Shown here piece after piece: positions 3,099 to 31,685 of a stretch of 64,000 nt of DNA (position 1 is its first letter; every line of letters begins with the position of its first letter). The notes beneath the pieces are model-generated. The model had not been told where the DNA came from and ran no database searches. It worked only from the letters and a program-made list of their open reading frames with translations. This DNA comes from Sphaerochaeta globosa str. Buddy. GTDB taxonomy: Bacteria > Spirochaetota > Spirochaetia > Sphaerochaetales > Sphaerochaetaceae. The stretch covers positions 2,982,458-3,046,457 of the forward strand of contig NC_015152.1 of NCBI RefSeq assembly GCF_000190435.1, given 5' to 3'. The position numbers were made by a program, and so were the translations under genes.

Positions 3099-3950
3099 AT
3101 GAATGGGTATGACACTTTAGTTGAGACGCTTTCACGTTTCGAACATAGTCTGGCTTCCCTCAAGCCGATCACCACGGTAGGCGAACTGGCAAAAGAAAGC
3201 GGCTACAGTGTCCATCACTTTTCCCGCCTCTTCTTCTCCCATACCTCGCTTCACGTGAAGGAGTACCTGCAGGGCAGATTGCTTACCTCAATTTTTGAGC
3301 AGGCAGCAACCGACAATGCTCCGTTTGCAACGCTTGCTGCTCTATATGGCTTTCGTGACTACGAAACATTCTATCGTGCATGCAAGACCCGTTGGGACAA
3401 GAATCCCACCCAAATACGGGAGCAAGGGCTGGCAGAAGAGCAAAAGCAGCAGAGAATCTATCCACAAAGAAAAGAGCCAACAATCACCTTGGTCGGCGAG
3501 TTGGTACAGAAAGAGGCTATCAATCTCTGCGGGCTAAGCTTTTTCGTCGGCCCGGAAACAAAAACCTTTCATACCATCTGGGCGCAATTCAGTAGGTATG
3601 AGCACCTGATCGAGCATACTCTGGAAGAGGGGACGACCTATCAGTACAGCTCATGGGCAGATGAACCAATGCCGGGCATGAGTGTGCTCTGCGCAAAAGC
3701 CATAGAAGAAGCTTGGCTGGAGGAGGAACTCTTCACTATCCGAAAAGTTCCCCCCGCCACCTACGTTCGTTTTGTGCATACCCAGGATGTCATGCTCATA
3801 CAAGAAGCCTACCAGTACATCTACGGAACCTATTTTGCCCGGAGCCCGTTGCAGCCTCTGGGCAATTGGGAGTTCCAGCGGTACCCCCAAGGTCGATCGG
3901 AAATTGAAATCTACATTCCCGTCAGAACAGGAACTCCTCTTCCCAGTTGA
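3099..3950 (+). CDS. AraC-family regulator with GyrI-like effector domain
   Basis: The 283-residue product has an N-terminal AraC/XylS helix-turn-helix pair at residues ~20-105 (LAKESGYSVHHFSRLF, then ATLAALYGFRDYETFYRACK) and a C-terminal GyrI-like small-molecule-binding domain at ~125-283. This is the Rob/MarA-like layout of regulators that respond to hydrophobic or drug ligands. The MATE exporter 1 kb upstream is a plausible target, but that is inference. I chose the ATG at 3099, which coincides with the predicted transcription start; an upstream in-frame GTG at 3081 lies inside the -10 region and is less likely. The end overlaps convergent trmO by 29 bp. Confidence 0.85.
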   Translation: MNGYDTLVETLSRFEHSLASLKPITTVGELAKESGYSVHHFSRLFFSHTSLHVKEYLQGRLLTSIFEQAATDNAPFATLAALYGFRDYETFYRACKTRWDKNPTQIREQGLAEEQKQQRIYPQRKEPTITLVGELVQKEAINLCGLSFFVGPETKTFHTIWAQFSRYEHLIEHTLEEGTTYQYSSWADEPMPGMSVLCAKAIEEAWLEEELFTIRKVPPATYVRFVHTQDVMLIQEAYQYIYGTYFARSPLQPLGNWEFQRYPQGRSEIEIYIPVRTGTPLPS

Positions 3951-4389
3951 AATGCTCGCTGTCCTCGATCCACAAAGGCCAATGGGCACACCAAGAGGGA
4001 GTCTTGTACTCACGCACGCGATCCTCACTGCCGTGATACGGCTTGATATCCAGGACAGCCGTCCCTTCCAATGCGTCAATGTACCCAAGCTCCAGAACAC
4101 CCTGTTTCACATCGACTTTCACTACTTCGGCGATGCTGATGCACAATGAGTTGGGGCGATACGGGGAGCGGGTGGCAAAAACTCCCAGCTGTTCGGGTCC
4201 CTTTGCATAGGGTTTGGGTATGAGCGTCAGGGCAGAACCGGCATTTCCCAGCTGGTCGGCATACCAGATGACCAGTACATGGCCAAAGCCTTCCAAGGCG
4301 GTCAGGCCGTTTTTGTAGGGCTCCTCGAGTTGAAGTTGAAAGCCTTTTTGGGTATGCACCCTTCCAATTGCGGTACAGGTAATTTCCAT
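3922..4389 (-). CDS. trmO: tRNA (N6-threonylcarbamoyladenosine37-N6)-methyltransferase, TrmO/YaeB family
   Basis: The 155-residue beta-barrel-type SAM methyltransferase carries the diagnostic block FATRSPYRPNSL at residues ~76-87 and a C-terminal DIKPYH block at ~118. TrmO N6-methylates t6A37 in tRNAs that read ACY codons. The ATG at 4389 has a strong GGAGG seven bases upstream, so the in-frame upstream extension to 4464 is rejected. It follows the creatininase-family gene on the same strand after 84 bp. It is short for the family because the second domain found in E. coli YaeB (about 235 residues) is absent, which is common in other phyla. Confidence 0.88.
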   Translation of the reverse strand: MEITCTAIGRVHTQKGFQLQLEEPYKNGLTALEGFGHVLVIWYADQLGNAGSALTLIPKPYAKGPEQLGVFATRSPYRPNSLCISIAEVVKVDVKQGVLELGYIDALEGTAVLDIKPYHGSEDRVREYKTPSWCAHWPLWIEDSEHFNWEEEFLF

Positions 4390-4473
4390 AGGTAATCCTC
4401 CTGATACAAGCATGGCTCGCTTCGTGAAAGACAGCCATGACAAAACAGGAGACAGATATGACACTATCTGGTA

Positions 4474-5196
4474 TTACAATCCCAACTCCAACAACTTGCC
4501 TCCGATAGCATCAACAGTGGTCTGAATCAGGAACTCCCCATACGCTGCATCAGAAAGGCGGGGATCCTCACCTTTTACCCCAAGCGGCCATGCACCGCCG
4601 GCATCCTCAATGCGGCCTAAGTCAACCAAGTCTGGATAGAGAGCCATCATGACAGAGGTTTCATTGCGTCCTGCATGGTCCTGTTGGGTCAAAAAGGTCT
4701 GTGCCTCAAAATCATTGAGGGAAGAGAGCAGAATGATGTCATACTGCTTCTCCCATAGAGGAGCCATCTCCGCCCAAGCCTTGCGTGAAGGACCGTGTCC
4801 GTCGGCAATAAGGCACATGAAACCGGCTCGTTTTGCTTGGGCGATGAGAGCCTCCAGCATCTGAAGGAACAAACCTTTGTTGACCCAGTAACAACTTCCC
4901 TCCAGCCTTTGATGAGGTTTGGTGGCGTCGCTGAGGTCCATGCCTATCAACGTCGTTTCTTCCAAAGCGGTCTCAATTCGGTCGGGTCCGAGATAGAGAG
5001 GAGGGAATACTATGCCTCCAAACGCTCTCGCAGCACGGGCAAACACACCATCGGCCTGCAAGGCATCGGCTCCCAATACATTGTGTAGTCCATGCCACTC
5101 CAACGTACCCAAAGGGATGTAGCCGACCGGATGCTCTTTCAATCTCTTTGAAAAAGCCGGAATGCTCAAATATGCATAGTGTACACACTCATTCAT
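4474..5196 (-). CDS. Creatininase-family amidohydrolase
   Basis: This 240-residue protein has the family metal-binding pattern: LGTLEWHG at residues ~29-36 (Glu and His ligands), GADAL (Asp ligand), a GHG triplet at ~132 and the downstream GRNETS Glu near 176. The family hydrolyses cyclic or linear amide bonds (creatinine, formamidopyrimidine, mycofactocin peptides), so the substrate is open. The ATG at 5196 overlaps the end of the upstream diguanylate cyclase by eight bases and has a GGAGG about ten bases before it, so the two genes are probably co-translated. The usual NGHGGN motif is altered to DGHGPS. Confidence 0.82.
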   Translation of the reverse strand: MNECVHYAYLSIPAFSKRLKEHPVGYIPLGTLEWHGLHNVLGADALQADGVFARAARAFGGIVFPPLYLGPDRIETALEETTLIGMDLSDATKPHQRLEGSCYWVNKGLFLQMLEALIAQAKRAGFMCLIADGHGPSRKAWAEMAPLWEKQYDIILLSSLNDFEAQTFLTQQDHAGRNETSVMMALYPDLVDLGRIEDAGGAWPLGVKGEDPRLSDAAYGEFLIQTTVDAIGGKLLELGL

Positions 5197-24210: not shown

Positions 24211-25047
24211 ATGCAACTAAAACCCATCAAGCGTATCACCGGGGGAACCGTACAGTATGACGGTGCAGGAGTGAAATTGGTCCGCATCATCGGCTATAAC
24301 GATGTCCAGAAGTTCGATCCCTTCCTCATGTTGGATGCTTTCGATTCTTCAGACCCGAAGGATTACCTTAAAGGCTTTCCCTGGCATCCGCACCGGGGCA
24401 TCGAAACAGTCACCTACCTCATCGAAGGGGAAATCGAGCATGGTGATAGCATGGGTAACATCGGCTCGATCAACAATGGTTGCTGCCAATGGATGACCGG
24501 TGGCAGCGGCATCATTCACCAAGAAATGCCTAAAACAAGCCCCCTGATGCTCGGCACCCAGCTGTGGATCAATCTGCCCAAGAAGGATAAAATGACCGAC
24601 CCTGCCTATCGGGACATCCGTGAGAGCCAGATTCCTGTGGTCAGGGCACAGGGATCCGAGGTTCGCATCATCAGCGGCTTTTATGAGGGCAAATCAGGAG
24701 CGGAGCAAGGTGACTATGTAAAGACGCTCTATCTCGACATCAAGCTGGAGGCGAACATAGCGTGGGACCTTTCTGTGAACCCAACGAACACGCTCTTCAT
24801 CTATATCGTGCGCGGTTCGGTGCACACCGACAACCAAGAGGTTCCCTTTCACAGGGCGGTCCTCTTCGGGGAAGGTGACACGCTTTCGCTGAAAGCAGGA
24901 TCAGAAGGTGCACGCATTTTCCTCTATAGTGCCAAACCACTGGGTGAGCCAATCGCCTGGGCAGGCCCTATTGTGATGAACACCCGTGAAGAACTCACGC
25001 TCGCCCAGCGGGAGCTGCGCGAAGGTACCTTCATCAAGCACACATAA
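24211..25047 (+). CDS. Pirin-family protein
   Basis: The 278-residue bicupin has N-terminal cupin metal ligands in PWHPHRGIETVTY (residues ~56-68, two His) and GIIHQEMP (~104-111, His and Glu). Some bacterial pirins are quercetin 2,3-dioxygenases; others regulate pyruvate metabolism. The role here is unproven. A strong AAGGAG precedes the ATG. It follows ferritin by 77 bp and ends before a clear terminator. Confidence 0.92.
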   Translation: MQLKPIKRITGGTVQYDGAGVKLVRIIGYNDVQKFDPFLMLDAFDSSDPKDYLKGFPWHPHRGIETVTYLIEGEIEHGDSMGNIGSINNGCCQWMTGGSGIIHQEMPKTSPLMLGTQLWINLPKKDKMTDPAYRDIRESQIPVVRAQGSEVRIISGFYEGKSGAEQGDYVKTLYLDIKLEANIAWDLSVNPTNTLFIYIVRGSVHTDNQEVPFHRAVLFGEGDTLSLKAGSEGARIFLYSAKPLGEPIAWAGPIVMNTREELTLAQRELREGTFIKHT

Positions 25048-25068
25048 GAGATACTTCTCCGTCCCTAC

Positions 25069-25098
25069 CAGCTGCCCTCTTTGGCAGCTGTTTTTTTT
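25069..25098 (+). terminator. Rho-independent terminator after the pirin gene
   Basis: CAGCTGCC (25069-25076), a six-base loop, GGCAGCTG (25083-25090) and eight T residues. Confidence 0.92.
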
Positions 25099-25121
25099 GG
25101 ATAGACACCCAGAAGCTTTTG

Positions 25122-25150
25122 TTGACATTGTACTAATACACCAGTACAAT
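25122..25150 (+). promoter_or_regulatory. Promoter and operator of the GntR/SPFH/ABC/LolA operon
   Basis: TTGACA at 25122-25127, a 17-bp spacer and TACAAT at 25145-25150 make a near-consensus sigma70 promoter. A perfect inverted repeat, ATTGTACT (25127-25134) and AGTACAAT (25143-25150) with an 8-bp centre, fills the space between the two hexamers. A further half-site AGTACAAG follows at 25151-25158. This is the expected position for autorepression by the GntR protein encoded next. Confidence 0.8.
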
Positions 25151-25172
25151 AGTACAAGAAAGGAGCTACACG

Positions 25173-25595
25173 TTGGCTAAGCTGAAAGAGGAACCAAAAT
25201 TGGAGTTCAGCCTGGATGTAAAGAGCGGAGTCCCGTTCTACAAACAAATCATTTTCCAGGTGGAGATGGCCATTTCCGATGGGAGGCTCGAGAAGGGGGC
25301 ACAATTGCCTACCGTGCGCAGCCTAGCCGTTGATTTGAGCATCAATCCCAATACCGTGGCACGTGCCTATGCTGAGATGGAAATTCGTAACATCGTGGTA
25401 ACCCAGCAAGGCTGTGGAACCTTCATCAGTGACAAGAAGGTAACCCTCGACGCTATCGAACGCGAGCGTATTCTCTCCCAAATCACCAAGGAATTTCTTA
25501 CCAAGGCTTCAAGCTATGGATTCACACTTGCTGAAATTCAACAATCCATTGTGGACCTAGGCACGGAAACCCAAAAAAACGAGGAAACATCATGA
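25173..25595 (+). CDS. GntR-family repressor, YtrA subfamily
   Basis: The 140-residue protein has an N-terminal winged helix at residues ~18-85 (GVPFYKQIIFQVEMAI, LPTVRSLAVDLSINPNTVARAY, GCGTFIS) and only ~55 residues after it, which is the short C-terminal helix pair of the YtrA subfamily rather than a large ligand domain. YtrA regulators typically repress ABC-transporter operons that they head. Translation starts at a TTG (25173) with AGGAG upstream. It overlaps the SPFH gene by four bases (ATGA). Confidence 0.92.
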   Translation: MAKLKEEPKLEFSLDVKSGVPFYKQIIFQVEMAISDGRLEKGAQLPTVRSLAVDLSINPNTVARAYAEMEIRNIVVTQQGCGTFISDKKVTLDAIERERILSQITKEFLTKASSYGFTLAEIQQSIVDLGTETQKNEETS

Positions 25596-26698
25596 ACCTG
25601 TATCAGAGAAAAATTGAACGAATCAAGAACATGAAGGGGTTTGTTCTCAAGCGAGACTTCAGCTATGGCTCAATCTCGTTTCTGTGTCTGGCCATCTTTT
25701 TGGCCCTTGGGGCGGTTCTCCAGCTCATGCTCTACCCCTACACAAACCTGCAAGCCATCGTATCGGTCAGTACGGCAACCTTTGTGAGCGCCTTGATGGT
25801 CGCCCTCATCCCCATTTGGGCGATTGTGATGGCTCTTATTCTCATGTTGTGGGTCGGCATTGTCGGCGGACTTTCGCTGTACCTCTACCCCATAGCACTC
25901 CTATCCACCCTTGGTCTTTTGCTCTCCGCCTCCTTCCAGCTGGTCTACCACTGGGACAAGGTCTTGGTCCTGAGACTGGGCAAATTCCATACGGTACGTG
26001 GACCTGGCCTCTTTTTCCTCATCCCGTTGGTCGACCGTATTGCTGAGTTCATCGACATGCGTATCAGGGCAACCGATTTCAGTGCGGAAAAGACTTTGAC
26101 CAAGGATACGGTGCCGGTACATGTCGACGCTCTCTCCTTTTGGATGATATGGGATGCAAAGAAGGCAATTCTGGAGGTCGAGGATTACACCGAGGCAGTC
26201 ATTCTCTCCGCCCAGACGGCACTGCGCGACTCCATAGGCAAACATCCACTATCCAGCCTGCTCAGCAAACGAGAAGAACTGGGCCGGGAGATCCAGCAGG
26301 CACTGGATGCAAAGACCAACCCGTGGGGGGTCACCATCCTCTCGGTTGAAATTACCGACATTATCATCCCCAAGGAGCTGGAAGACGCCCTGAGCAAACA
26401 GGCACAGGCGGAGCGGGAGAAAGAGTCACGCATCATTCTCGGAGCAGCCGAGGTGGAGATTGCCAAAAAGTTTACCGAGGCCTCAGCTCACTATGCAAAT
26501 GACCCCATTGCCCTGCAATTACGCTCGATGAATATGATTTATGAAGGGATCAGGCAGAATAATTCCATGATGCTTATGCCTGCATCCATTCTCGACCATA
26601 TGGATTTCGGTGCTGTCATGGGCACTGCCTCCATGCAAAAAATTGAAGAACTCAAGCACAAGCAATCCAAGACTGAAGAGGGAGAACCAAAGAAATGA
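25592..26698 (+). CDS. SPFH/Band-7 membrane protein (slipin-like)
   Basis: The 368-residue protein has about four hydrophobic segments in residues ~25-118, then an SPFH/PHB domain at ~118-300 starting VYHWDKVLVLRLGKFHTVRGPGL (split: motif YHWDKVLVLRLGKF near 118-131) with IDMRIRATDF and VEDYTEAVILSAQTALRD, and a helical C-terminal region rich in Glu/Lys/Ala. Slipins and flotillins oligomerise and organise membrane microdomains or regulate partner proteins. It is unusual to find one inside a LolCD-type operon, overlapping the ATPase gene by four bases, which suggests that it scaffolds or gates the ABC complex. Confidence 0.88.
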   Translation: MNLYQRKIERIKNMKGFVLKRDFSYGSISFLCLAIFLALGAVLQLMLYPYTNLQAIVSVSTATFVSALMVALIPIWAIVMALILMLWVGIVGGLSLYLYPIALLSTLGLLLSASFQLVYHWDKVLVLRLGKFHTVRGPGLFFLIPLVDRIAEFIDMRIRATDFSAEKTLTKDTVPVHVDALSFWMIWDAKKAILEVEDYTEAVILSAQTALRDSIGKHPLSSLLSKREELGREIQQALDAKTNPWGVTILSVEITDIIIPKELEDALSKQAQAEREKESRIILGAAEVEIAKKFTEASAHYANDPIALQLRSMNMIYEGIRQNNSMMLMPASILDHMDFGAVMGTASMQKIEELKHKQSKTEEGEPKK

Positions 26699-27375
26699 TC
26701 AAGGTTGAGAAGGTAAGTCGCAATTATAAAACTGGTGAGAGTATCGTTCGTGCCTTGAAGCAGGTCTCCTTGGAAATCCAAGGGGGAGAATTTCTTTCCA
26801 TTGCAGGGCCGTCGGGTTCAGGAAAAACCACCCTGCTCAACCTCATCGGATGCATCGATGCCATCGATGAGGGAGAGATCATCATCAACGACCAGAAGGT
26901 CAGCACGATGAACAAGGAAGAGAAGACTACCTTCAGAAGGCAAAATCTGGGATTCATCTTCCAGACCTACAACCTCATTCCCGTCCTCTCCGCCTACGAG
27001 AATGTCTCCTTCGTCCTCTCGCTGCTCGATGTAGCTGAATCCGAGATCAAGCAGAGAACCTACGAGGTCCTCAGGGAAGTCGGCCTAGAAGGTATGGAAA
27101 ACCGTCGCCCTTCTCGCCTCAGCGGGGGACAGCAACAGAGAATTGCCATTGCCAGAGCTTTGGTGAAGCGACCCCAGATTATTTTGGCCGATGAGCCGAC
27201 TGCCAATCTCGACTCCAAAACCGGTGAGGAAATTCTTAAACTGATGAAACGGATGAATGAGAAATATGGTACCACGTTCATTTTCTCCACGCATGACAAA
27301 ATGGTCATGGAGTACGCCACTCGGTTGGTGCAGCTCCACGACGGTTCCATCGTAAGCGATGAAAGGAGACAGTGA
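26695..27375 (+). CDS. LolD/MacB-type ABC transporter ATPase
   Basis: The 226-residue ATPase has Walker A GPSGSGKTTLLN at ~37-48, Q-loop FQTYNLIP, signature LSGGQQQRIAIARAL at ~140-154, Walker B ILADEPTANLDS and H-loop FSTHDK. It belongs to the mechanotransmission ABC class (LolD, MacB, FtsE) that moves cargo on the periplasmic side rather than through the membrane. It overlaps the SPFH gene by ATGA and the first permease by TGATG. Confidence 0.95.
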   Translation: MIKVEKVSRNYKTGESIVRALKQVSLEIQGGEFLSIAGPSGSGKTTLLNLIGCIDAIDEGEIIINDQKVSTMNKEEKTTFRRQNLGFIFQTYNLIPVLSAYENVSFVLSLLDVAESEIKQRTYEVLREVGLEGMENRRPSRLSGGQQQRIAIARALVKRPQIILADEPTANLDSKTGEEILKLMKRMNEKYGTTFIFSTHDKMVMEYATRLVQLHDGSIVSDERRQ

Positions 27376-28631
27376 TGAAATTCATCCTGCAACTGGCAGC
27401 GAAGAACCTGATGCGTTACAAGCGCAGGACAGCCATAACCGCTGTAGCCATCGCATTTGGTTTGATGATGTATGTTTTTGTCGATTCGCTTCTTCTTGGA
27501 GCCGAACTGGAGTCGATGCGCAACCTTCGCTGGTATGAGACTGCTTCCTTGAGAGTCCACGATTCCGCCTACTGGGAAGACCGGTACTTTTTCCCGCTGG
27601 AAGCTTCCATCGAGAAATCGAAGGAAATCCTTGATGTATTCAAGGCTGAGGGGATTGCTGCAACCGAACGCACGCTCTTTGCCGCCGATATGATCCTCTA
27701 CCAGGATGATTTTGGTGAGGATGGCAATATGAGTGTGCAGGTTACGGCCATCAATGCTGAGACCGACTTTGAGGTATATCGTTTTGAGGATACCCTTGTC
27801 GAAGGTCGATTCCTCAAAAGCGGAGAGATGGACGGAATCGTGCTCGGTAGATGGTTTGCCGAGGATATCGGAGCAAAGGTCGGCTACTGGGTAACCCTGG
27901 TCACCCGTGGCAAGGGAGGCTTCTACGAGGCTTTCGACATGCAGGTTGTCGGTATCGTCAACTGCCCCAACCCCAATGTGAACCGAACCTTGGTCATGAT
28001 GGACATCGAGGCTGCCGATCTCTACCTTGGCATGGAGGGGTCGGTGTCCAGCATCGACATCATGCTTGGGGAAAAAAGCGACCTTCAGCAAATCGCACAG
28101 CGTTTACAGACCAAGCTGAACGCCATCGAATCCGACCTGGTAATCTACACATGGCAGGACCTTGCCCGTGACTACTTGGCTATTCTGGAAGCCAAGCAGG
28201 GTGGAACCGGTTTGATTCTCTTTCTTGTATTCATCATTGCAGCCGTCGGAGTTTCCAATACCATGCTGATGGCCATGTATGAGCGTATGCGTGAACTTGG
28301 CATGATGCGTGCGTTGGGGATGAAGGACCGTGACATTCTCTTGGCCTTCCTCTTTGAAGCAGGGGGTATTGGATTGTTGGGTTCAGTGGTCGGCCTGCTG
28401 TTGGGAATTCTTGCCAATCTATACTTGGTGAATGTAGGTTTTGACTTCGGTTTCATGTTCAGGGATATGGACATCGGCTTCAGGATTCAGAATGTCATGC
28501 GGGGTGCATGGAGCCTGCCGACTTTTATAAAGGCATTTATAAGCGGTATCGGACTGTCCATGCTGGTTGCATTCCTACCCATCCGCAGGGCATTGAAGTT
28601 GGATATTCCCACCTGCCTGCACCATCAATAG
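27375..28631 (+). CDS. LolC/E (FtsX/MacB-core) type permease 1
   Basis: The 418-residue protein has one N-terminal helix (~residues 18-40), a ~230-residue periplasmic MacB-PCD-like domain and three C-terminal helices (~270-400) with the usual coupling block ERMRELGMMRALGM at ~297-310. This is the topology of lipoprotein-releasing permeases. The ATG at 27375 overlaps the ATPase stop and follows AAGGAG. It differs from permease 2 in sequence, so the pair resembles LolC/LolE heterodimers. Confidence 0.9.
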   Translation: MKFILQLAAKNLMRYKRRTAITAVAIAFGLMMYVFVDSLLLGAELESMRNLRWYETASLRVHDSAYWEDRYFFPLEASIEKSKEILDVFKAEGIAATERTLFAADMILYQDDFGEDGNMSVQVTAINAETDFEVYRFEDTLVEGRFLKSGEMDGIVLGRWFAEDIGAKVGYWVTLVTRGKGGFYEAFDMQVVGIVNCPNPNVNRTLVMMDIEAADLYLGMEGSVSSIDIMLGEKSDLQQIAQRLQTKLNAIESDLVIYTWQDLARDYLAILEAKQGGTGLILFLVFIIAAVGVSNTMLMAMYERMRELGMMRALGMKDRDILLAFLFEAGGIGLLGSVVGLLLGILANLYLVNVGFDFGFMFRDMDIGFRIQNVMRGAWSLPTFIKAFISGIGLSMLVAFLPIRRALKLDIPTCLHHQ

Positions 28632-28643
28632 GAGAAAAGGGCA

Positions 28644-29879
28644 ATGACGACAAAACTACCTGCTCTGGCATTTCGCAATATTTTTCGCAATCTTCGCCGT
28701 TCCTCGCTCTCGGCCATTGCCATTGCCGTGTCGGCCATGGCAATCATGGCACTCTTGGCCCTGCTTGAATGCATGGAAGCCGACATGCAGACCAACCTGA
28801 CCTCCTACTATACCGGTGAGGTAAGGATCCGGCATGAGTCATTTGAGAAATATGAACGGTACAATCCCTTGCATCTCAGCCTTGAAGTCGATGCAGTGCT
28901 TCCGCTTGCATCCTCCGTCGAAGGTGTTGAAGCGGCAACCAGCCGCATCAACTTTCCAGCTAATCTCTACCTCAACGGCAAAAACAATGGAGCCCTGGGT
29001 GTTGGTGTCGATTTTGCAACTGAAGTTGCATTCATTGACTTTCCTTCCTTGCTCACTGAGGGAAGAATTCCACAAGAGGGGAAAAACGAACTGCTTATCG
29101 GGGCCATCCTGGCACATGAACTGCGCCTGAACATCAATGATAAGGTTACAGTCCTTACCTCCACCGCCCTGAGGGGCTCGAATGCCATGACCTTTGAGAT
29201 CGTCGGGATCGCAAGTTTTCCGGTCGGCGGCTTGAGCTCAAAGACGCTGTACATCCCCTTGGACAGGGCACAGTACCTGTTGCGTATGCCAGGCCAGACT
29301 CAGGAGATACTGCTCCAGGTTGCCGAGGGCTTCAAGGAACAGGAGGTAGCGCAAGAGGTGAAGAGCCTCCTTGCAACCTCGCTTGGCTTGGAAACCGAGA
29401 CCAAGGCCTGGAAGGATTTGAATATGATGTACTCCCTGCTCTCCATGGCCAAGCTAATCTACTATGTCATGGCTGGTGTATTCTTCATTCTGGGCAGTAC
29501 GGTCATCATCAATACCACCATGATGGTCATTTATGAACGAATGCGTGAAATAGGAACGCTGGGGGCCTTGGGCATGCAAGGCAAGGAACTGACCCGTCTC
29601 TTTTTGCTGGAAGGTTCATTCATCAGCATGGCTGGTTCAACAATGGGAACCCTCATCGGTCTGATCATCATAGCCGTCCTGGGCAAAGTCGGATTGAATT
29701 TCACCGAAGCAATGAGCGGGGTGGATATGGAGATTTCTTCCATCCTCTATCCTCAGGTCAATTGGTGGATAGCTCTCTTTGTCTGGTTCTACGCTATTCT
29801 CATCGCAACGCTTTCGACGCTCATTCCTTCCAGGAGAGCATCAAAAATCCAAATAGTGGAGGCACTCCGTTATGTCTAA
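28644..29879 (+). CDS. LolC/E (FtsX/MacB-core) type permease 2
   Basis: The 411-residue protein has the same topology as permease 1: N-terminal helix at ~22-45, periplasmic domain, and three helices after residue ~275. It has the matching cytoplasmic coupling block ERMREIGTLGALGM near 300. The N terminus LAFRNIFRNLRRSSLSAI is typical of MacB/LolC permeases. AGGAG lies before the ATG, and the end overlaps the LolA-like gene by eight bases. Confidence 0.9.
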   Translation: MTTKLPALAFRNIFRNLRRSSLSAIAIAVSAMAIMALLALLECMEADMQTNLTSYYTGEVRIRHESFEKYERYNPLHLSLEVDAVLPLASSVEGVEAATSRINFPANLYLNGKNNGALGVGVDFATEVAFIDFPSLLTEGRIPQEGKNELLIGAILAHELRLNINDKVTVLTSTALRGSNAMTFEIVGIASFPVGGLSSKTLYIPLDRAQYLLRMPGQTQEILLQVAEGFKEQEVAQEVKSLLATSLGLETETKAWKDLNMMYSLLSMAKLIYYVMAGVFFILGSTVIINTTMMVIYERMREIGTLGALGMQGKELTRLFLLEGSFISMAGSTMGTLIGLIIIAVLGKVGLNFTEAMSGVDMEISSILYPQVNWWIALFVWFYAILIATLSTLIPSRRASKIQIVEALRYV

Positions 29880-30618
29880 TCGTACCCGTCTGGTTGCAGT
29901 CACCCTTGTGTGTCTGCTCTGTATACCGTTCTCCCTTGCGGCAATCACAGCCGAGGATATCATCCGTACCATGGACGGAATGCAGACCTTCGAGACTTCC
30001 TATTCAAATGGTTCCATCAAGACCACCGACCGTTTCGGTGTGAAGGAGAGTACCTTCAAGGCATGGTCGCAGGGCTCCAGTGATTCACTCATCGAATTCA
30101 CCAGTACCGCAGAGCGGGGGCAGAAAATTCTTAGGACCAAGGGTAGCTTGTATCTCTTCTATCCCGATGCCGAGGAGTTGATCAGATTGCAAGGGGCAGC
30201 GCTCAGGCAATCGATGCTCGGCTCAGATATCTCCTACGAAGACATGACCGAAGAGAAAAACACCCTGGATGACTATACGGTCAAGCTTGACGGTAGTGAG
30301 TTAGTCAACGGCCGGGACTGCCATGTTCTTACCTTGACGGCAAAAACACGCCAGGTAGCCTACCCGATTCAGAAAATCTGGGTGGATAAGGAAACCTATC
30401 TGGTATGGAAAGCTTCCTACTCAACAGCCCAAGGCAGACTGCTCAAAGAGATGCAAGTGCTTGCCACAATCGTAGTGGAAGGGCGAACACTTCCCAAGGA
30501 GAGCCGCATTGAGGACAAGATGAAGCGCGACAGCGCGACCATCATGGCCTTGGATACCTTGGAAGTAAATATTCCCTTAGATCGAAAAATCTTTACCTTG
30601 GAGAATTTGACATGGTAG
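29872..30618 (+). CDS. LolA-like outer-membrane lipoprotein-sorting protein of the ABC operon
   Basis: The 248-residue protein has a Sec signal peptide (~residues 1-23) and a LolA_like half-barrel. The block MLGSDISYEDM near residue 118 matches GSDFSYADM of the RND-linked paralogue at 14994-15755, tying the two operons together. In Lol systems an ABC complex hands acylated lipoproteins to such a carrier. Overlaps on both sides (eight and seven bases) imply translational coupling to permease 2 and the barrel protein. The cargo is unknown. Confidence 0.87.
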   Translation: MSNRTRLVAVTLVCLLCIPFSLAAITAEDIIRTMDGMQTFETSYSNGSIKTTDRFGVKESTFKAWSQGSSDSLIEFTSTAERGQKILRTKGSLYLFYPDAEELIRLQGAALRQSMLGSDISYEDMTEEKNTLDDYTVKLDGSELVNGRDCHVLTLTAKTRQVAYPIQKIWVDKETYLVWKASYSTAQGRLLKEMQVLATIVVEGRTLPKESRIEDKMKRDSATIMALDTLEVNIPLDRKIFTLENLTW

Positions 30619-31685
30619 GCAGACGTCTTCTACTTATCAGCATTCTCCTAACCGGTATCCTTGTTGGGACCAGTGCTGCACAGAGTCCTGTGGTGGAGAT
30701 GAATCTTTTAAGTGCATTCACCTACACTCCCTCAACCGAACAATGGGGCAACAGGATGATTCCTGATTTGAAGCTGACCATCAGTTCGGAAAATTCAGGG
30801 AATGTACGCGGAGAGATCTCCTTGGGGACTCCTAGTGTCGCTATACCTTCTGTTGACGATTTCATTCGAAAAGCATACCTACGGGCCCGCTTTCCTTCCT
30901 TTCGCCTGACTGTCGGAAAGACCCGGCTCAGCTGGGGGGATGGCATGTTGTTCAATGCAGGCGATATCCTGTATGGCAGTTCTTCTGTCTCAGTAAGCCT
31001 TACACAGGCGGAATTGAGAAGTGAAACCGACTGGATGGCAAGCGTGAATTATCCATTGGGATTCTTCAGCTTTGCCGAGGCTGTCGTACTTCCCAGTAAG
31101 ACCGGAAAGGCCGAGGATATAGGCCTTGGTGCACGTTTCTATACCAATGTAGGCGAGACTAAAGTCGAAGGTGGTTACCTGACTAAGGAAGAAACCGGCC
31201 GGGTGCACAAGCTCTACGCAAGCCTGCAGGGAAACATAGGGCCTGACTGGTACCTCTCATCCTCAGTCACCATTCCCCAGACCAATCCGAATGCTTCCGA
31301 TATTCAGGACTCATGGCTGATAAGCACAGGGCTGTTCCACGTGGTGTATTTGCCACAAGACAAGAACCTTTCTCTCAGGTTGGAACTGCTCGCACGGCCT
31401 TTCGGCAATTGGAAGTTTGAGAGCCAGAGCGATGCCACCTGTGCACTGCTTTTCTACCCTGAGGTTGTGTACAGCCCCACCAGCTCGCTCTCCTACAGCG
31501 TACGAGCCATTGTTTCCCCGCTGGATCTGAGTATCCTGCTTACAGGCGGAGCCTCCTGGTCGGTGTTTGAGGGCTTCAGCCTGATTACAAACATCGCCGC
31601 CCCGTTTGGAGAGAGCGGCGATGTATTCAACTGGAATGGTTCAAGTGCAGCAGGACTGACCTTGGGCGTATCCTGGATCTATTAA
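30612..31685 (+). CDS. Outer-membrane beta-barrel protein of the ABC/LolA operon
   Basis: The 357-residue protein has a signal peptide (residues 1-22, ending GTSAA), strands throughout and the C-terminal aromatic SWIY. The segment TVGKTRLSWGDGMLFNAGD (~101-119) is like that of DUF1302-type barrels. I infer that it is the outer-membrane end of the pathway formed by the upstream genes. Its TAA stop shares a TTAA palindrome with the stop of the convergent ferredoxin gene. Confidence 0.75.
   Translation: MVGRRLLLISILLTGILVGTSAAQSPVVEMNLLSAFTYTPSTEQWGNRMIPDLKLTISSENSGNVRGEISLGTPSVAIPSVDDFIRKAYLRARFPSFRLTVGKTRLSWGDGMLFNAGDILYGSSSVSVSLTQAELRSETDWMASVNYPLGFFSFAEAVVLPSKTGKAEDIGLGARFYTNVGETKVEGGYLTKEETGRVHKLYASLQGNIGPDWYLSSSVTIPQTNPNASDIQDSWLISTGLFHVVYLPQDKNLSLRLELLARPFGNWKFESQSDATCALLFYPEVVYSPTSSLSYSVRAIVSPLDLSILLTGGASWSVFEGFSLITNIAAPFGESGDVFNWNGSSAAGLTLGVSWIY

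Follow-up and report, generated by a model that had tools for sequence, protein, structure and literature searches.

A conserved inverted repeat as candidate operator of a YtrA-type GntR regulator and its ABC export cassette in Sphaerochaeta globosa and other Spirochaetia

The gntR gene of Sphaerochaeta globosa is preceded by a perfect inverted repeat lodged in a promoter. Is this repeat the operator of the regulator encoded next to it, and how many genes would it control? In the window (the whole stretch of 64,000 nucleotides analysed) the candidate operator ATTGTACT-N8-AGTACAAT covers positions 25127-25150, with no strand assigned, and is composed of ATTGTACT (25127-25134), AATACACC (25135-25142) and AGTACAAT (25143-25150). 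The other features of the region are on the + strand. The -35 hexamer TTGACA (25122-25127) has its last base in common with the repeat, and the -10 hexamer TACAAT (25145-25150) is formed by the right arm. This TTGACA/TACAAT pair is the sole promoter found by a scan of 24900-25300 (11 of 12 matches, 17-bp spacer; shuffled sequences give 0.4 on average). It sits between a terminator-like hairpin with a T run, 3' of the upstream pirin gene (25069-25098; stem-loop 25069-25090, then the T run), and the TTG start of gntR at 25173, itself preceded at 7 nt by a probable ribosome-binding site AGGAG (25161-25165). A third half-site, AGTACAA, lies 8 bp beyond the right half-site (25151-25157). The initial annotation had described a perfect N8 palindrome at consensus promoter hexamers followed by a third half-site, and both hold in letters and coordinates. 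It had also placed the operator as exactly filling the -35/-10 spacer: the 17 spacer bases are indeed covered, but the repeat extends over the final base of the -35 and the entire -10 as well. An Rfam search of 24900-25400 for an RNA element in the leader gave no match.

Other arrangements can be read in the same letters. The third half-site takes part in a second perfect repeat, TTGTACTA-N14-TAGTACAA (25128-25135 and 25150-25157). The conserved centre AATACACC is a weak half-site in its own right, so that AATACACC-AGTACAAT-AGTACAAG (25135-25158) is readable as a threefold direct repeat with a period of 8 bp.

By itself the repeat would prove little, since the entire window contains 31 perfect 8-bp-arm repeats with centres of 0-20 bp. 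When the 125-bp intergenic gap is resampled with a first-order Markov model, 0.115% of the resamplings contain a perfect repeat with 8-bp arms set exactly 8 bp apart, and 2.5% contain one whose arms are anywhere from 0 to 20 bp apart. A search of the window for the exact pattern, with as many as 3 mismatches tolerated, gives one hit where 0.10 would be expected; as the pattern searched was derived from the site itself, this only means that the window has no second copy. Conservation among relatives is far stronger evidence than these single-sequence figures.

The product of gntR (25173-25595) is a YtrA-type small GntR regulator of 140 aa, according to Pfam, the predicted fold and a fold search. 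A GntR winged helix-turn-helix occupies its N-terminus (PF00392, E 1.1e-13, residues 23-85) and is followed in the AlphaFold2 model (mean pLDDT 83.5, pTM 0.59) by two C-terminal helices (94-114 and 119-139), i.e. by what is predicted to be a reduced C-terminal domain of about 50 aa. These are traits of the YtrA subfamily, as are the location of gntR in a row with ABC-transporter genes and a long inverted repeat whose GT and AC lie well away from the centre (GT-N14-AC), the gap of which is kept in relatives. The modelled fold class is the YtrA-type architecture as outlined in PMC4494728. In the fold search short GntR structures come out on top, including 4ham, 4r1h and 6sbs (YtrA of Sulfolobus), with 2du9 (C. 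glutamicum) lower; whole-chain rmsd to short GntR structures runs from 2.7 to 6.9, so the C-terminal helices agree loosely and their placing is not fixed. More specific names do not fit. The protein is below the NCBIfam cut-off of each of the 18 matched models, among them the PmtR equivalog (59.5 against 200 bits) and the Rv1152 equivalog (69.1 against 170 bits). BusR, in its published outline, recognises a bipartite motif with a 22-bp separation read by a coiled-coil ruler; the BusR type was discarded for a protein that ends after two helices and has a preferred half-site gap of 8 bp.

The gene row continues on the + strand with an SPFH/Band 7 membrane protein as second gene (25592-26698; PF01145, E 3.7e-35), a LolD/MacB-like ABC ATPase (26695-27375; PF00005), two FtsX/MacB-type permeases (27372-28631 and 28644-29879; PF02687 and PF12704 in both), a LolA-like outer-membrane lipoprotein-sorting protein (29872-30618; PF17131, E 3.1e-49) and, at its end, a 357-aa protein (30612-31685) with no Pfam or NCBIfam match. 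The ABC ATPase stays below each NCBIfam cut-off among the matches listed (25 of 190 models). For the 357-aa protein, place and composition allow the guess of an outer-membrane barrel, perhaps a partner of the LolA-like protein. Since the genes overlap or lie close together, gntR is presumably co-transcribed with the ABC-transporter genes, and the predicted target is gntR-SPFH-ABC-FtsX-FtsX-LolA-like plus the putative barrel. The cassette is kept in relatives: an SPFH gene comes after the regulator in 121 of the 125 rows with enough sequence, the ABC ATPase is present in 64/74 rows and the first permease in 55/68, two non-spirochaete rows being among the misses.

In a class sample of 394 Spirochaetia genomes, an orthologue of GntR (E<=1e-20) is found in 122 and the pattern TTGTAYT-N8-ARTACAA in 114. 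The two go together: 90 of the 122 regulator-bearing genomes have the pattern, versus 24 of the 272 others (Fisher p 1e-38, ignoring shared ancestry). The reversed pattern, used as control, has no link to the regulator (9/122 vs 10/272, p 0.13). Thirty-two regulator-bearing genomes are without the exact pattern; many of their rows have it with 1-3 mismatches. Upstream regions of the regulator in which a recognisable gap-8 site is absent include L123, L127, L133, L064, L175, L177, L181, L182 and L205, among others. As to the 24 pattern-only genomes, one (G303) has a dispersed repeat and some have the pattern 5' of ABC genes; in others the motif looks like chance. G303, in which no orthologue was detected, has the pattern at 23 places, nearly all of them TTGTACTACCCCCTCAATACAA-like or TTGTATTAAACCCTAAATACAA-like copies, apparently of a repeat unrelated to GntR.

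We then consider the spacing of the half-sites in 131 distinct upstream regions, counted after removal of rows with identical last 120 bases and of rows shorter than 60 bases; the set includes L146 and L022, whose upstream stretches were truncated in error at the end of a contig, matches that are partial or have a broken frame, and two rows from outside the spirochaetes (L022, L023). At gap 8 the number of regions with a perfect site is 75, rising to 93 when one mismatch is tolerated. Of the 23 gaps tried (0 to 22), the remaining ones yield far fewer perfect sites: 22 for gap 16, four for gap 0, two for gap 13 and none for the rest. This preference designates the inner repeat as the conserved unit. 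Its half-sites are nearly invariant across 72 distinct site strings, with the consensus ATTGTACTA-N6-TAGTACAAT.

The place of this unit relative to the promoter varies. Counted from first base to first base, the left half-site precedes the -10 by 17 bp in 33 of the 93 good-site regions, so that the -10 hexamer is the operator's right arm (spacer-type; 30 of the 33, with at least 10/12 promoter matches, are called strong). In 42 the left half-site follows the -10, counted likewise, by 10 or 11 bp (downstream-type); nine regions show other registers, and in nine no promoter was found. When the flanks are shuffled and the operator is kept, the means per 93 regions are 0.28 strong spacer-type and 0.56 downstream-type. 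The registers follow taxonomy: all 28 Sphaerochaetaceae rows are spacer-type, with TTGACA immediately 5' of the operator and a spacer of 17-18 bp; the two strong spacer-type rows that remain belong to family f42; and the downstream type occurs in 16 further families, most of the other spirochaete families sampled. A protein tree was built with 39 downstream-type rows (three of the 42 were dropped for short translations) and 30 spacer-type rows, leaving out 21 rows of neither class (three weak spacer-type, nine in other registers, nine without promoter). In it the Sphaerochaetaceae rows form one group (98/91), and a long branch carries the two f42 rows. A single register change, in which f42 would share, fits the tree, weakly supported by 34% of 200 bootstrap trees. 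The downstream type may be the older. In Sphaerochaetaceae the promoter may then have been rebuilt inside an older operator, the right arm becoming the -10 and TTGACA being set before the left arm, i.e. a clade-wide promoter shift of 27 bp around a constant operator; we hold this scenario evenly balanced between right and wrong.

The third half-site, ARTACAA 8 bp after the right half-site, is present in all 19 same-genus rows. Allowing one mismatch it is found in 21/30 spacer-type rows and 9/42 downstream-type rows, and is mainly a feature of the genus. Accessory half-sites beside GntR operators are a pattern described in PMC4494728 and PMC6746942. An extra half-site at offset -5 in 26 of the 42 downstream-type rows was rejected as a separate box, because it overlaps the operator and the TTATA before it. 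Another arrangement is seen 5' of the gntR orthologues at L180, L183, L187 and L189 (families f42, f11 and f13), which have a tandem of two repeats: an almost gapless one like TTGTACTAGTACA within the promoter spacer and a gap-8 one just past the -10. To judge by these sequences, the tandem suggests two bound units.

Does the motif mark other genes? Away from the orthologue start, there are 42 further pattern sites among the matches listed (the 23 places of G303 excluded). Sixteen of them are followed at a distance of 16-243 bp by an ABC-ATPase or FtsX-permease homologue, measured to the start of the tblastn match and not to the start codon, and 26 have no such homologue alongside, again among the matches listed. 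The first 16 sites were chosen by eye and 10 of these precede ABC/FtsX homologues; among the 26 examined apart from them, 6 do. Sites with the undegenerate half-sites TTGTACT/AGTACAA account for most cases (14/21, versus 2/21 for degenerate ones, among the matches listed). At L190, in another Sphaerochaeta genome, an extra FtsX permease gene (3701-4978) is located between pirin and gntR and has its own spacer-type operator; this operator is flanked by TTGACC and GGTCAA, which extends the symmetry beyond 24 bp. L191 is a duplicated permease with a downstream-type site, and L193-L195, from three family f26 genomes, are sites before separate genes for an ABC protein or a permease. The sites L198-L200, L221-L223, L225, L229 and L230 precede ABC proteins only 23-32% identical to that of the window, in part in genomes where no orthologue was detected, and may therefore answer to other YtrA-type regulators.

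A scan of the window's own genome, proposed initially as a way to find other targets, gives a narrower picture. Within 2 core mismatches there are 15 other places (8 with the reversed-pattern control). The motif score is 34.4 bits at 25127-25150 and 18.5 bits at the best other place, which is inside a reading frame; the lowest score among the sites of relatives is 23.4 bits, a level that none of the 15 reaches. Twelve of the 15 are inside open reading frames of at least 90 aa, while L005, L213 and L214 lie 21, 127 and 24 bp 5' of reading frames with scores of 4.7, 7.4 and 13.7 bits. L213 (C1:2626684-2626705) is a partly similar repeat, ATTGTACATGAATTTACGTACAAT, and the frame that follows it looks, from its first residues, like a sugar-type ABC ATPase. 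A wide regulon was thus not found within 2 core mismatches. Since the scan yields this single strong site, the regulon predicted in this genome is one operon instead of the many targets first envisaged.

Two other readings of the repeat have to be weighed at this point. It could be that the true operator is TTGTACTA-N14-TAGTACAA (25128-25157), the outer repeat, in which AGTACAAT would be an inner accessory box: all 8 of its 8 bases are paired, its half-sites are separated by about two helical turns, and it is kept in the genus (19/19 rows). But the relatives' gap counts (22 perfect regions of 131 for gap 16, versus 75 for gap 8) led us to reject it as the main site; relatives outside the genus mostly lack the third half-site but retain the inner repeat, and the inner GT-N14-AC resembles the AGTGTA-13bp-TACACT operator reported for B. 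subtilis YtrA (PMC8060467). We consider this reading unlikely. It appears most unlikely that the repeat belongs to a different regulator, or that it is a promoter element kept for RNA polymerase. Both hexamers are overlapped, so its conservation may partly be that of the promoter; nevertheless the motif is kept outside the hexamers, just past the -10, in 42/93 rows, and it tracks the regulator gene.

The reading as GntR operator is the best one because the motif tracks the regulator gene and keeps its 8-bp gap, because its promoter position varies by clade, and because it recurs before ABC/FtsX genes. The comparison with relatives thus supports what had been proposed from the letters alone, a GntR operator at its own promoter: 25127-25150 is very probably the operator of the adjacent YtrA-type GntR repressor, which would control its own gene together with the export cassette. 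What has been computed is the sequence and how far it is conserved, its association with the regulator and with ABC/FtsX genes, and the class of the fold; binding, repression, dimer stoichiometry, co-transcription and induction can be pictured from this as follows. A dimer would sit on the half-sites TTGTACT and AGTACAA, the GT and AC steps of which are 14 bp apart. The operator spans both spacer and -10 in the one promoter that is visible, so the bound protein would exclude RNA polymerase, and by this exclusion the regulator would repress itself and the cassette. An envelope signal or ligand, which we assume, would release GntR and turn the operon on. In the genus, the third half-site would probably help to keep additional protein positioned over the start region. 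The comparison does not tell activation from repression, and HpaR1, of the YtrA subfamily, is reported to activate some processes (PMC4730234); GntR might then bind the site and activate or merely tune the operon. This we regard as very unlikely: polymerase is expected to be blocked by a protein that covers the -10 and the spacer, or the start site, YtrA, PmtR and YtrASa are described as repressing their own operons (PMC8060467, PMC5080381, PMC6746942), and HpaR1 is reported also to autorepress its own gene (PMC4730234).

YtrA-type autoregulation of an ABC operon is a familiar kind of control, of which the Sphaerochaeta site is a new example; some modest extra interest comes from its being conserved across the class and placed in two promoter registers, a natural instance of a single operator at two main promoter positions. 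Among the papers listed on Sphaerochaeta GntR, spirochaete YtrA or a GntR/SPFH/FtsX cassette, titles and first lines of abstracts contain no description of it. The YtrA-subfamily motifs of Suvorova et al. 2015, as presented in PMC4494728, are alike in being long, mostly single sites of single ABC operons, with extra half-sites near the palindrome in some groups. The taxonomy table of that survey has no Spirochaetes among 229 YtrA-subfamily regulators, so the present motif gives a class-wide operator to a regulator type without spirochaete representatives there, and ties it to one envelope-export cassette (SPFH plus a Lol/MacB-like ABC transporter). B. subtilis YtrA, in the account of PMC8060467 (citing Salzberg 2011), is likewise a small GntR repressor acting through a long inverted repeat on its own ABC-transporter operon, one of two target operons. 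Its operator differs from TTGTACT-N8-AGTACAA; the cassette of the window has SPFH, FtsX permeases and a LolA-like protein, and its operator is inside the promoter spacer. S. aureus PmtR is described as a YtrA-type regulator encoded by the first gene of an ABC operon, with a 36-bp footprint overlapping the start site that is comparable to the downstream register of other spirochaetes (PMC5080381). YtrASa of Sulfolobus acidocaldarius (PDB 6SBS) shares the short GntR fold (TM-score by target 0.83 for 6sbs_A and 0.63 for 6sbs_B) and, following PMC6746942, the autorepression that we propose here and the accessory half-sites beside a core repeat, but this core is 14 bp with close half-sites, at an archaeal promoter where the site lies over the transcription start.
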